Positions 11,427 through 54,270 of a DNA stretch of 64,000 nt are shown here, in pieces. Both the position numbers and the translations under genes were made by a program. The notes under the pieces are model-generated. The model saw only the letters and a list, made by a program, of their open reading frames with translations, did not search any database and had not been told where the DNA came from. Origin of the DNA: Rufibacter psychrotolerans (GTDB lineage: Bacteria; Bacteroidota; Bacteroidia; Cytophagales; Hymenobacteraceae). How positions within the stretch are numbered: the stretch's first letter is position 1; each line of letters starts with the position of its first letter. The stretch lies in NCBI RefSeq assembly GCF_016924645.1, contig NZ_JAFFJV010000005.1:124001-188000 (forward strand), in the 5' to 3' direction.

Positions 11427-11502
11427 CTCCGTTGGCGTGAGTTTGCAACTCATGCCTGAAGACGTTTCCGCTGGCGCGAACGCTCCAGACTCGTGCCTAC
11501 AG
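11427..11502 (+). repeat. Two REP-like palindromes in tandem
   Basis: Two diverged copies of one unit stand head to tail: 11427-11463 (CTCCGTTGGCGTGAGTTTGC onward) and 11464-11502 (TTCCGCTGGCGCGAACGCTC onward). Each has a short inner palindrome around a GAG/CTC pair. The same unit occurs inverted at 11673-11732 and as a long inverted pair at 50715-50919. They resemble REP sequences mobilised by RAYT transposases, but no RAYT gene is visible here. Confidence 0.65.
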
Positions 11503-11625
11503 ATGCCAGATAGTCTCCTGATTATCCTCGCTGCACCGCAGCGATTCTACGCATTGCTGAGGAACCATAGTCAAACTACAGCACGGTAATTATTCCCGTT
11601 TTATGCTATGAAGCTACCTGAGAAA

Positions 11626-11648
11626 GGCGCGGAAGTAACTTCCGCGCC
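11626..11648. repeat. 23-bp palindrome, GGAAGTAACTTCC core
   Basis: GGCGCGGAAG TAA CTTCCGCGCC is a perfect 10-bp stem with a 3-base centre. Related copies occur at 11798, 11839, 61598 and 61638. Confidence 0.75.
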
Positions 11649-11672
11649 ATAGGGCAACACAAAAGATAGTTC

Positions 11673-11732
11673 CGGCGAGTCAGGAGCGTTCGCACCATCC
11701 CTAATCACGAGATCAGAGTCTCGCGCCAGCGG
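11673..11732 (-). repeat. REP-like units in inverted orientation
   Basis: Two diverged units (near 11673-11697 and 11703-11732, the second ending TCTCGCGCCAGCGG) are reverse-oriented relative to the pair at 11427-11502. Together they bracket the palindrome at 11626. Confidence 0.55.
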
Positions 11733-50195: not shown

Positions 50196-50528
50196 TTAAC
50201 TAAGCCGGGCCACAGGCGGGCCGCGCGGAGAGGTGGTTTGTGGATAGCTGAACTTCCAGATAAAGGCGTAACCAGCCTGATAGCTGTCTATCAACGGAAT
50301 AGGAGCGGTAAACGCCACTACGGTCTCTGAGGGTTGAAAAGGCGTATTGAACAACTCGGCCGTTGGACAATGCGTGTGCTTGTTGTCAATGTGCGGCCGG
50401 TTCTCGTCGTGGGGTTTGTCTTCTGAGTGCGCGTGGGCGTGCAAAGCCACCAGTACCTTTTCAGGTACCATCACCCGCATAAACAGCAGGAGCAAGAGGT
50501 AGGCACTTATGGTTCTAAGACAACGCAC
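50196..50528 (-). CDS. His-rich membrane-anchored small protein
   Basis: This is a 110-residue protein, best read from the GTG at 50528: an N-terminal hydrophobic helix (ISAYLLLLLFMRVMVP) precedes an exposed tail with HAHAHSEDKPHDENRPHIDN and KHTHCPTAELFNTPF. ATG at 50480 would remove most of the helix. Clustered His and one Cys suggest binding of Zn, Cu or a similar ion. It lies upstream of the TonB receptor gene on the same strand and has its own -7 element. The open frame can begin at a TTG at 50549, inside the promoter element, which is unlikely. Confidence 0.68.
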   Translation of the reverse strand: MRCLRTISAYLLLLLFMRVMVPEKVLVALHAHAHSEDKPHDENRPHIDNKHTHCPTAELFNTPFQPSETVVAFTAPIPLIDSYQAGYAFIWKFSYPQTTSPRGPPVARLS

Positions 50529-50546
50529 TTTCAAAAGGGGAATAAG

Positions 50547-50554
50547 CAAATATA
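50547..50554 (-). promoter_or_regulatory. Promoter -7 element (TATATTTG, minus strand)
   Basis: An exact TAnnTTTG match; the expected start of transcription near 50542 is about 14 bases before the GTG of the His-rich protein gene. Confidence 0.55.
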
Positions 50555-50714
50555 GGTCCTAAAAATAATAGTTGTACAGCAAACGTCAGACAAACAGGAA
50601 GAACGGCAGCTATAAGCTATTGAAACGAGGAGGTGCGGGCTTATGTTTTTAGGGTGTTTCTCAGAAACTGGGCTATAAATGAGAAATGCTTTGCCTTCAC
50701 AGAGTTGCTCTTAT

Positions 50715-50754
50715 CCGCTGGCGCGAGCTTGCAGCTCGTGTCCGCACGCATTCC
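50715..50754 (+). repeat. REP-like unit, left arm of a 40-bp inverted repeat
   Basis: CCGCTGGCGCGAGCTTGCAG continues to a GCATTCC end. The right arm at 50880-50919 is its reverse complement with one mismatch in 40 bp. Between them lies copy B of the ~90-bp element. Confidence 0.8.
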
Positions 50755-50778
50755 CGGGATAATCGATTCACCCACTCC

Positions 50779-50867
50779 TGTCATCTTGGGAAGATCTTGT
50801 AGGCAAACTAGAAAAGCCTTAAAGAGACGCTACTACTGTTTGCTCACAAGATCCTTTCAGGGTGACA
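50779..50867 (-). repeat. ~90-bp inverted-repeat element, copy B
   Basis: Left end TGTCATCTTGGGAAGATCTT, right end ATCCTTTCAGGGTGACA. The loop contains CTAGAAAAGCC before CTACTACTG, so it is inverted relative to copies A, C and D. It is nested in the 40-bp inverted repeat. Outside this composite the 50555-51089 gap holds nothing recognisable. Confidence 0.8.
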
Positions 50868-50879
50868 GAAAGAAGCAAT

Positions 50880-50919
50880 GGAATGCGTGCGGACACGAGC
50901 GGCAAGCTCGCGCCAGCGG
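50880..50919 (-). repeat. REP-like unit, right arm of a 40-bp inverted repeat
   Basis: This begins GGAATGCGTGCGGACACGAG and ends CTCGCGCCAGCGG. It is the reverse complement of 50715-50754 with a single mismatch. Confidence 0.8.
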
Positions 50920-51089
50920 GGCATAAACGAGTAAATTGTTCTTTCATAAAACGCCTCAGCTAATCATTGACATTCGCCAATGCTGCTCCTGCCATATTTT
51001 TTCTGCCATCCTGTCACTTTTGACGTAGGTGGAACAGCTTTTGCCAAGCCTCTTCAAAACCGCAATACATACACATCGATATAAAGGAA

Positions 51090-52910
51090 ATGGAAGAAAA
51101 AGGCACGATTTCGATTCACACCGAGAACATTTTCCCTATCATCAAGAAGTTTTTGTACTCAGACCACGAGATCTTCTTGCGTGAGTTGGTTTCAAACGCT
51201 GTAGACGCGAGCCAGAAGGCCAAGCGTTTGTCGGTGATTGGTGAACTGAAAGGCGACCTGGGTGACCTGAAGGTGACCGTGAAGGTGGACAAAGAGAAAA
51301 AGCAGATCATCATCTCGGACAACGGGATAGGGATGACCGCCGAGGAGATCAAGAAATACATCAACCAGATTGCCTTCTCCGGCGCCACTGAGTTTGTGGA
51401 GCGCTACAAAGACTCTACTGACAAGAGCCAGATCATCGGGCAGTTCGGTTTAGGTTTCTATTCTGCCTTCATGGTGGCCGGCACCGTGGAGATTGACACT
51501 TTGTCGCACCAGGACGGCGCGGAGCCTGCGCACTGGATCTGCGACGGTTCTACAGAGTTCTCCATCACTACCGGCAGCCGCACTGAGCGTGGTACCGATG
51601 TGATTTTGAACATCGCCGAGGATTCTGAGGAGTTCCTGGAAGAAGCCCGCTTGCAATCCATCCTGAACAAATACTGCAAGTTCCTGCCAATTCCGGTAGA
51701 GTTCAACGGCGAGACCATCAACAACCCGAACCCCATCTGGACCAAGTCTCCGTCTGAACTGACCGACGAGGACTACAAGAACTTCTACAAAGAACTGTAC
51801 CCGTTCTCTGAGGACCCGCTGTTCTGGATTCACCTCAATGTAGACTATCCGTTCAACCTCACCGGTATTCTTTACTTCCCTAAAGTGAAGAATGAGTTCG
51901 ATTTCCAGAAAAACAAAATTCAGTTGTACAGCCGTCAGGTATTCATCACCGACGAGGTGAAAGACGTAGTGCCTGAGTTCCTGATGCTGTTGCACGGCGT
52001 GATCGACTCCCCAGACATTCCACTGAACGTGAGCCGCTCCTTCCTGCAGGCCGATGCCAACGTGAAGAAAATCAATACCTACATTACCCGTAAGGTGGCC
52101 GATAAACTGAACGAGATCTACAAGAAAGACCGCACTGCCTACGAAGAGAAGTGGAATGACATTGCGGTGTTCGTGAAGTACGGCATGCTTTCTGACGACA
52201 AATTCTACGAGAAAGCCAAAGACTTCGCCCTGCTGCAAAGCACCGACGAGAAATTCTACACCCTGGAAGAGTACCGCAATTACGTGCAAGCCAATCAAAC
52301 CGATAAAAACGGCCAGTTGGTAATCTTGTACACTACGGATGCCGAGAAGCAGCACGCCTTCATTGAAACCGCCAAGAACCGCAACTATGACGTGGTTAAG
52401 CTGGACACGATGATTGACCCGCATTTCATTGGTCAGTTAGAGCAGAAACTGGAGAAAACGACCCTGAAACGCGTAGACGCCGATACCATTGACAAGCTCA
52501 TTGAGACCGATGCCAAGCCGGCCAGCGTGTTGTCTGAAGACGAGACCAAGCGTTTGAAAGAGTTGTTTGAGAAGGCCATCAACAACCAGAACATGACCGT
52601 AGGCGTGGAAGCCCTGAGCACCGATGACCAGCCGGTTATCATCACCCTGCCTGAGTTCATGCGCCGCATGAAAGACATGAACCGCATGGGCGGCGGCGGC
52701 ATGATGATGGGCAACTTCCCAGACATGTACAACGTGACCATCAACGCCAATCACCCCATCAACCACCGTATCCTCAAGCACAACGACGAGCGCGGTGAGA
52801 AGATAGCCAAACAAGCCTATGACCTGGCGTTGCTGTCGCAGAACATGCTTTCCGGTGCAGCCCTTACCGCGTTTGTGAAGCGCAGCGTGGAGCTAATTGA
52901 CAAAGAATAG
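51090..52910 (+). CDS. htpG: Molecular chaperone HtpG (Hsp90)
   Basis: This 606-residue Hsp90 homodimer is an ATP-driven folding chaperone. The N-terminal ATPase (Bergerat fold) has LRELVSNAVDASQKAK, ISDNGIGMTAEEIKKYINQI and IGQFGLGFYSAFMVA. The middle domain carries DVVPEFLMLLHGVIDSPDIP and NVSRSFLQAD. The C-terminal dimerisation region is present, with a Met/Gly-rich segment RMGGGGMMMG. It is short in the charged linker, as bacterial forms are. It is downstream of the repeat-rich gap and ends at a strong terminator. Confidence 0.97.
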   Translation: MEEKGTISIHTENIFPIIKKFLYSDHEIFLRELVSNAVDASQKAKRLSVIGELKGDLGDLKVTVKVDKEKKQIIISDNGIGMTAEEIKKYINQIAFSGATEFVERYKDSTDKSQIIGQFGLGFYSAFMVAGTVEIDTLSHQDGAEPAHWICDGSTEFSITTGSRTERGTDVILNIAEDSEEFLEEARLQSILNKYCKFLPIPVEFNGETINNPNPIWTKSPSELTDEDYKNFYKELYPFSEDPLFWIHLNVDYPFNLTGILYFPKVKNEFDFQKNKIQLYSRQVFITDEVKDVVPEFLMLLHGVIDSPDIPLNVSRSFLQADANVKKINTYITRKVADKLNEIYKKDRTAYEEKWNDIAVFVKYGMLSDDKFYEKAKDFALLQSTDEKFYTLEEYRNYVQANQTDKNGQLVILYTTDAEKQHAFIETAKNRNYDVVKLDTMIDPHFIGQLEQKLEKTTLKRVDADTIDKLIETDAKPASVLSEDETKRLKELFEKAINNQNMTVGVEALSTDDQPVIITLPEFMRRMKDMNRMGGGGMMMGNFPDMYNVTINANHPINHRILKHNDERGEKIAKQAYDLALLSQNMLSGAALTAFVKRSVELIDKE

Positions 52911-53040: not shown

Positions 53041-53131
53041 TTTGTCATCCTGAAAGGATCTTGTGGGCGAACGGTAGTGGCGTTATTGTAAGGTCTTTCT
53101 AGTTTTCTAACAAGATCTTTCCAAGATGACA
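53041..53131 (+). repeat. ~90-bp inverted-repeat element, copy C
   Basis: Left arm TTTGTCATCCTGAAAGGATC, right arm AACAAGATCTTTCCAAGATG. The loop order (GGTAGTGGCG before TTTCTAG) matches copies A and D. It starts 68 bases after the htpG hairpin. Confidence 0.85.
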
Positions 53132-54181: not shown

Positions 54182-54270
54182 TGTCATCCTGAAAGGATCT
54201 TGTGGGCGAACGGTAGTAGCGTTACAACACAGCTTTTCTAGTTCGCTAACAAGATCTTTCCAAGATGACA
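54182..54270 (+). repeat. ~90-bp inverted-repeat element, copy D
   Basis: Begins TGTCATCCTGAAAGGATCTT and ends CAAGATGACA. The arms pair over about 30 bp and the loop order matches copies A and C. Confidence 0.85.

Follow-up and report, generated by a model that had tools for sequence, protein, structure and literature searches.

The 64,000-nucleotide stretch of the Rufibacter psychrotolerans genome analysed here (the window) carries, upstream of htpG, a 205-nt inverted repeat that encloses another repeat. This raised the question of whether one element was inserted into another, whether the whole is a composite mobile unit with its own termini, or whether the symmetry is a local accident. 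Hairpin repeats of the REPIN type probably multiply with the help of a small transposase. Our analysis indicates that the element is very probably a REPIN belonging to a RAYT subgroup typical of Bacteroidetes, the spacer of which holds M, a palindrome similar to a dimer of CGTC-type REPs, which reportedly have no transposase of their own. At one and the same site, some related species have arms that enclose M and others have arms that do not. Since the same nested pair recurs across the genome and the relatives, this is mostly known biology, with an inner cargo that is unusually changeable.

Structure and folding of the element

The outer arms were reverse complementary at 39 of 40 positions, as the first-pass annotation had claimed, and the sole mismatch falls on the loop-closing position in the hairpin of the right arm (Table 1). 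Each arm consists of a hairpin, GGCGCGAGC-N5-GCTCGTG, followed by TCCGCACGCATTCC. The enclosed repeat, also claimed in advance, proved to be the 89-bp palindrome M, two further copies of which stand in the window without arms. Over its full length, the window composite shares 82–84% identity with congeneric copies and equally with the paralogs that G000 itself contains. Folded alone, a check that the first-pass annotation had suggested, the 205 nt formed a strong structure, reaching −131.7 kcal/mol as RNA (z −16.1) and −75 kcal/mol as DNA (z −13.1), and none of 200 shuffles was equally stable in either case. A local accident was ruled out: with up to 3 mismatches allowed, the 23-base core of the arm matched nowhere in 100 shuffles of the window, while the genome contained 96 and 84 matches to the two arm patterns described below and none to the reversed patterns.

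Table 1. Features of the window (position 1 is its first letter) and of other loci referred to in the text. C numbers without a genome are contigs of G000, the R. psychrotolerans genome.
Feature	Position	Strand	Remark
REP pair of family B (by eye)	11431..11730	.	encloses a family-X palindrome at about 11626-11652
117-aa ORF, left neighbour	50196..50549	-	start 50549; divergent to htpG
Left REP arm, family A	50715..50754	+	CGCTGGCGCGAGC-TTGCA-GCTCGTGTCCGCACGCATTCC; from arm pattern matches
Left linker	50755..50778	+	terminates in GATTCACCCACTCC; from linker comparison
M, 89-bp palindrome	50779..50867	+	TGTC-tagged head-to-head dimer of small hairpins
Right linker	50868..50879	+	from linker comparison
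Right REP arm, family A, inverted	50880..50919	-	reverse complement of left arm
Putative sigma54-like promoter block TGGAACAGCTTTTGCC, 5′ of htpG	51030..51045	+	context only
htpG (HSP90), right neighbour	51090..52910	+	
Solo M, armless	53043..53131 (approx.)	-	83-84% alike to window M
Solo M, armless	54182..54270 (approx.)	-	83-84% alike to window M
RAYT A, 181 aa	G000:C28:216146-216691		A arms on both sides, in opposite directions
Arm-pair site	C35:93149		bare in G002, G007
Arm-pair site	C35:30694		bare in G003, G008
Arm-pair site	C27:84027		bare in G000; loaded in G002, G003
Arm-pair site	C24:49441		bare in G000; loaded in G011
Arm-pair site	C22:17480		holds M in G003, a different insert in G000
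GGCTGTGTCTGAAAAA repeat	L086:4674-4827		
GGCTGTGTCTGAAAAA repeat	G000:C23:308170-308455		

The arms and their RAYT

The family-A arms are REPs tied to one RAYT lineage. Patterns for arms and M were scanned through whole genomes, namely 39 including the own genome (G000; 5.18 Mb in 35 contigs), 16 of the genus and 23 of other genera. In G000, a 22-base arm core had 96 matches and a 32-base arm pattern 84, with none for the reversed control of either. The arms therefore recur genome-wide, which the first-pass annotation had suggested checking. The pair closing the hairpin loop was T-A, G-C or C-G in 101 of 103 matches (the loops of 11 were read from the opposite strand), which represents covariation; of the two matches that deviate, one is the window's right arm. 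The foot of the arm is CGCT, and a GTAG-type foot is absent. The first-pass annotation was right in calling the arms REP-like; the kinship it saw with the REPs at 11.4–11.7 kb did not hold, because the repeats at 11.43–11.73 kb have only the 12–13 base foot CCGCTGGCGCGA in common with the window arms and form, by eye, the distinct family B. No ORF of 70 aa or more was found at 22 of 28 scored arm-pair sites, the other six being spanned by an ORF taken as spurious; according to a crude ORF caller, the 28 scored sites besides the window lie between tandem (16), convergent (10) or divergent (2) genes. Several contig ends of G000 (both ends of C5, and C9, C10, C14 and C28) were no more than about 350 bases away from an A-type arm, a pattern that these repeats would produce if they hinder assembly.

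Two genes of G000 exceeded the Pfam Y1_Tnp cut-off and a third relative was found by protein search. A RAYT gene flanked by the same arms, which the first-pass annotation had suggested looking for, exists in RAYT A. This protein reached 99.7 bits against NF047646, the NCBIfam model of REP-associated tyrosine transposases (cut-off 80), and 1.7e-9 against Pfam Y1_Tnp; its best PDB match was 4er8, deposited as TnpArep (E 3.2e-5), and its ORF contains a predicted HUH motif (SHVH) and a putative catalytic Tyr motif (YIHLNP). Some RAYT was present in 27 of the 39 genomes, and RAYT A orthologs (79–100% identity) in G000, G014 (Rufibacter sp. SYSU D00344), G008, G022, G011 (Sabulibacter ruber SYSU D00434), G010 and G021. 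A arms lay within 1.5 kb of all seven RAYT A loci, on both sides in five and on one side in G010 and G011. A test at 1.3 kb, applied alike to all RAYT loci, again placed A arms at 7 of 7 RAYT A loci and at none of the other 37 distinct loci (the 46 rows of the RAYT locus table represent 44 distinct loci, two having been read twice). A looser arm pattern detected a look-alike hairpin at 4 of 18 other RAYT loci. In a wider scan of 80 loci, A arms stood by the gene at 20 of 20 with at least 70% identity, five of which belong to genomes already in the 39-genome set, and at 6 of 60 below 70%; the former included loci of Pontibacter, Adhaeribacter, Pedobacter and Marivirga.

Within the genus, A arms numbered 84 in G000, 67 each in G014 and G011, 62 in G008, 45 in G003, 27 in G010, 24 in G002, 8 in G015, 6 in G004, 5 in G009, 2 each in G001 and G007, and 0 in G005, G006, G012 and G013. 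The 32-base pattern had no match in the 23 genomes of other genera; in G021 and G022, RAYT A is adjoined by A-type hairpins with a different tail, which explains why the pattern is blank there. Arms numbered 27–84 in the five genomes of the genus with full-length RAYT A and 0–45 in the 11 without (Mann-Whitney P 0.0015, with species that are not independent); G004, counted among the latter, retains fragments of RAYT A, around which three of the six arms of this genome lie. The arms looked as if they decayed where RAYT A is missing: by hand count, 60 of the 84 arms of G000 were perfect matches, whereas in G003 and G002, which lack RAYT A, the numbers were 15 of 45 and 3 of 24 (Fisher P 4e-5 and 2e-7 against G000, respectively). 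Nevertheless, G003 maintains its 45 arms despite having no RAYT A, and the RAYT A gene of G014 has an in-frame stop between the HUH and Tyr motifs, yet this genome has 67 arms.

The M palindrome

M exists independently of RAYT A. Every one of the 16 genomes of the genus has M half-sites (18 to 176 per genome), even the four in which no arm matched; outside the genus, M ends were present in 2 of 23 genomes (G017 and G022). The TGTC tag was found in 76 of 82 M halves, which start their 5-bp stem with A-T (75/82) and T-A (79/82) pairs, close it with a 3-nt loop and continue with CTTGTG; the fourth pair covaries (C-G in 54, T-A in 27 and T-G in one of the 82). The ends of M are TIR-like, with a mean of 24 of 30 positions identical, and its orientation was assigned from the asymmetry of its centre. 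By eye, solo copies are flanked by pyrimidine-rich sequence on the left and purine-rich sequence on the right. That M might be the REPIN of another RAYT was considered and rejected: it lay near 1 of the 46 RAYT rows, approximately the chance level (1–2 by our own arithmetic), so that no cognate RAYT was found for M.

Nesting of M in arm pairs

The stretches of G000 that were read cover 90 of the 96 arm matches, with six outside, and contain 36 convergent arm pairs, seven of which have a differing second arm and one of which is of family B, as the arm-pair pattern with 4 mismatches also lets in family-B pairs. Intact M was found in 18 of the 36 pairs and partial M in two more, so that 18 of the at least 41 M copies in these stretches are inside arm pairs. 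Random intergenic placement, assuming 400–620 kb of intergenic DNA and 57 or 115 M copies, would put 0.4–1.4 copies there versus the 18 observed, an enrichment in which copied and inherited composites count as separate events that are not independent.

Across genomes, exactly one M was present in 67 of 99 distinct arm pairs, a set enriched by the many stretches chosen for their composites; the totals of M and composites are lower bounds, as 40 of 123, 40 of 71 and mostly 20 candidates per genome were scored. Fifteen of these 67 composites, the window copy included, have linkers of 34–36 and 21–26 nt that are similar in sequence and in fixed relation to the direction of M, and they are spread over 9 distinct sites that share no flanks. 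The total linker length was 50–66 nt in 23 composites, eight of which split it otherwise, and most of the remaining composites have one longer linker or extra inserts. Some hold a further nested palindrome of family X or D, families that adjoin RAYTs of their own. By eye, a CTCTTTT-like tract is frequent at the M border of the REP spacers, and the flanks of solo M look similar.

The window site in relatives

In the window, the composite lies in a divergent gene arrangement, between htpG and a minus-strand ORF that gave no match in a Pfam search. The TGGAACAGCTTTTGCC block, which resembles a sigma54 (−24/−12) promoter and may be one, is kept 5′ of htpG in each of the 16 genomes compared, at distances of 60 to 692 bases from the start codon. 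Repeats seem to separate this block from htpG in some relatives, and a hairpin of roughly TTTTNGGCCTGTTTTCTGAAAACAGGCCNAAAA was noticed by eye at 50640–50690 of the window and at other intergenic loci, including 5′ of htpG.

Within 900 bases 5′ of htpG, the composite was absent at this site in 15 of 15 congeners, the aligned interval being compared in 13 of them. G003 has alignable flanks and a remnant half arm, G001 carries an unrelated family-B REP pair, and in the remaining congeners no A arm was found 5′ of htpG. G011, the nearest by its flanks, is not a simple empty site because its whole upstream region differs. As congeners lack the composite, the element appears to be dispensable at the htpG site, at least across species, and it is probably neutral intergenic DNA, since near relatives manage without it.

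Orthologous sites

An orthologous site was at hand for 18 of 31 arm-pair entries of G000, a list that takes in family-B pairs and the window site. The presence of M differed at five of these 18 (Table 1), with gain and loss left unpolarised given a genus species tree that is unstable between markers. Not only M but also other parts of the interior varied. At C27:87614, both M and X were found in G000 and G011, and M only in G008, where the orientation call is based on a decayed M; another orientation call (G011, L388) scored zero. At C35:93149, the M of G010, G003 and G015 points the opposite way to that of G000, G008, G011 and G014, and in G010 both linkers are, by eye, reversed along with it; the direction of M also differs at C6:53934 (G010) and C27:14575 (G003), where the linkers do not clearly follow. 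At C35:30694 in G009, two half arms are fused to one palindrome, which is what deletion between the arms would leave. G000 and G011 both have arm pairs at 13 sites (11 of 19 compared rows and two C35 sites), the interior being alike at 8 and of another kind at 5 by eye, while the other eight rows had no G011 pair, one or decayed arms, a single arm, or an unusable alignment.

Because the states of the same site vary (with M, without M, with M or the entire interior turned round, or with extra nested repeats), one repeat appears to have lodged within another, and the spread of the composite was probably in part that of a single unit. Arm pairs that hold no insert exist as well, in relatives even at matching sites, and these bare and loaded arms support the suggestion of the first-pass annotation that one element was inserted into another. 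Its alternative, a composite mobile unit, may apply to the copies with like linkers at 9 distinct sites. No movement, excision or target duplication was seen among the sites compared across relatives, nor was a clean empty site with a target duplication found there; element-free relatives diverge for tens of bases or have repeats of another kind there.

Comparison with known REP systems

The published accounts used here (PMC3116915, PMC8049555, PMC3733652, PMC6006769, PMC2817692, PMC1525189) enter the comparison in excerpt. Like REPINs and BIMEs, the element is an inverted intergenic REP doublet in many copies with a predicted hairpin, inverted REPs surround a RAYT gene, and the number of arms is higher where the RAYT is present. 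In contrast to them, its arms have the CGCT foot instead of GTAG, its spacer bears a second palindrome, and its M-bearing units in G000 measure 201–433 bp, compared with 71 bp between the 16-mers of the GI REPIN of P. fluorescens in the part of the study consulted (PMC3116915). The GT[AG]G foot is not general, however, as TnpA-Y1 subclass 2.6, equivalent to RAYT group 5 of Bacteroidetes, is described without it in the sections used (PMC6006769). RAYT A was likened to this subclass by motifs and flanking REPs: according to the same excerpt, both have WQ and both are flanked by REPs without GT[AG]G that have copies elsewhere. Its SHVH and YIHLNP correspond to NH[LIV]H and YIH[QN]NP, and thus RAYT A differs in the S as first HUH residue and the L of YIHLNP; the A arm hairpin is strong and covarying, whereas weaker, atypical structures are described for subclass 2.6 in those sections (PMC6006769).

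M was compared with the CGTC REPs, which, as excerpted from PMC3733652, often have a TGTC tag, A-T first pairs and head-to-head dimers, lack a dedicated transposase and have Bacteroidetes among their hosts. M shares the TGTC variant, the A-T/T-A start of the stem and the head-to-head dimers, and no cognate RAYT was found for it among the 46 RAYT rows. It differs in stem and loop (5 bp and 3 nt versus 8–9 bp and 4–5 nt) and in continuing with CTTGTG where a CCA-like tail is reported in the same excerpt (PMC3733652). Because the stem and loop lengths disagree, M was labelled CGTC-like and not a member. The literature already contains mosaic and hybrid BIMEs as well as REP dimers inside palindromes. 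Excerpted accounts include hybrid BIMEs with REPs of two RAYTs (PMC2817692) and REPs as known insertion targets, with ISs inserted in them (PMC1525189). Families are interleaved here as in mosaic and hybrid BIMEs (PMC2817692, in excerpt), but the inserted repeat is a small palindrome whose position within the doublet recurs, and bare and loaded states exist at orthologous sites. No description of an arm–M–arm composite was recognised in titles and abstracts of the REP/RAYT literature, a coverage that included few subscription papers.

Origin of the composites

By analogy with TnpA-REP as described in part of PMC6006769, RAYT A would copy REPINs via single-stranded arm hairpins. M may have entered the REPIN spacer, perhaps at the pyrimidine tract, and some arm–M–arm composites could later have been copied as one unit, while others would stem from independent insertions of M or from arm-to-arm recombination. 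Replication or recombination at the inverted arms might account for the inversion of the interior and for the fusion of arms.

Movement of whole composites and repeated insertion of M are about equally likely, and the two do not exclude each other. That the composite is active and moved whole by RAYT A, with M as passenger cargo, can be entertained tentatively: the 15 of 67 composites with like linkers fixed relative to M stand at 9 distinct sites, and the window copy is equally close to congener copies and its own paralogs (82–84%). However, relatives differ in M and keep the arms at 5 of 18 sites, therefore M can come or go alone; 8 of the 23 composites with 50–66 nt of total linker split it otherwise, and a clean empty site was not found. 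M could just as possibly be a MITE that repeatedly hit the pyrimidine tract of REPIN spacers, each composite being a separate insertion, which is consistent with the CTCTTTT-like tract at the M border, with the similar flanks of solo M (by eye), and with REPs being known insertion targets in the excerpt of PMC1525189. On the other hand, the solo flanks look, again by eye, like an extended inverted repeat and not like a target, no transposase bearing M ends was met in an unsystematic look, and shared linkers require copying or a fixed site. Two functional readings carry less weight. The very stable fold of the 205 nt and the tandem or convergent genes on either side of 26 of the 28 scored arm-pair sites (crude ORF caller) would suit a structured RNA that regulates neighbours as terminator, mRNA stability element or attenuator, which we consider improbable because the window copy is flanked by divergent genes, precedes the conserved htpG promoter block and is absent at this site in 15 congeners, Rfam gave no match anywhere in the window, and the interior is often unconserved between orthologs. 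Least probable of all is an invertible switch with an interior that flips between inverted arms. M is indeed reversed at C35:93149 in G010, G003 and G015, together with both linkers in G010, but reversal was seen only between species, the linkers do not clearly follow at the two other sites where the direction of M differs, and simple inversion at inverted repeats suffices to explain it.

A broader and rather doubtful extension of the REPIN interpretation is that RAYT-bounded REPINs act as carriers, in which transposase-less palindromes such as the CGTC-like M, and REPs of other RAYTs, lodge in the spacer, are copied together with the arms, and are swapped or inverted through arm-to-arm recombination, the sites being long-lived docks with exchangeable cargo. 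If true, this would answer how transposase-less CGTC REPs spread, their mobiliser having been left open in the excerpted part of a 2013 survey of tagged REPs (PMC3733652). As a CGTC-like dimer is found in RAYT-associated REPINs with bare and loaded versions of the same site, such hitch-hiking is testable in a genus that is not known to be linked to disease. The data also provide a well-mapped REP/RAYT set for a Bacteroidetes subclass so far described as structurally atypical.

Other repeat families in the genus

Other REP families adjoin other RAYTs (family B at 4, C at 7, X at 3 and D at 1 of the 46 rows). A palindromic repeat of approximately 155 bp starting with GGCTGTGTCTGAAAAA adjoins RAYT A and was also seen inside an A-type arm pair (Table 1). 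Two A-type arm pairs of G000, C11:42901-43332 and C22:17480-17884, contain a different cargo with ends CCCACCCCCACCCCTCCCAGGAGGGG, and at the former site G011 has an M composite in place of this cargo. A further RAYT lineage (L326–L334; 26–32% identity to RAYT A) is accompanied by a distinct REP, TTGTTGGTGTTATCACCAACAA, at 7 of 9 loci read; L334 has neither this nor the variant that replaces it at L332, GGTCTGTCAGGGGACAGACC.
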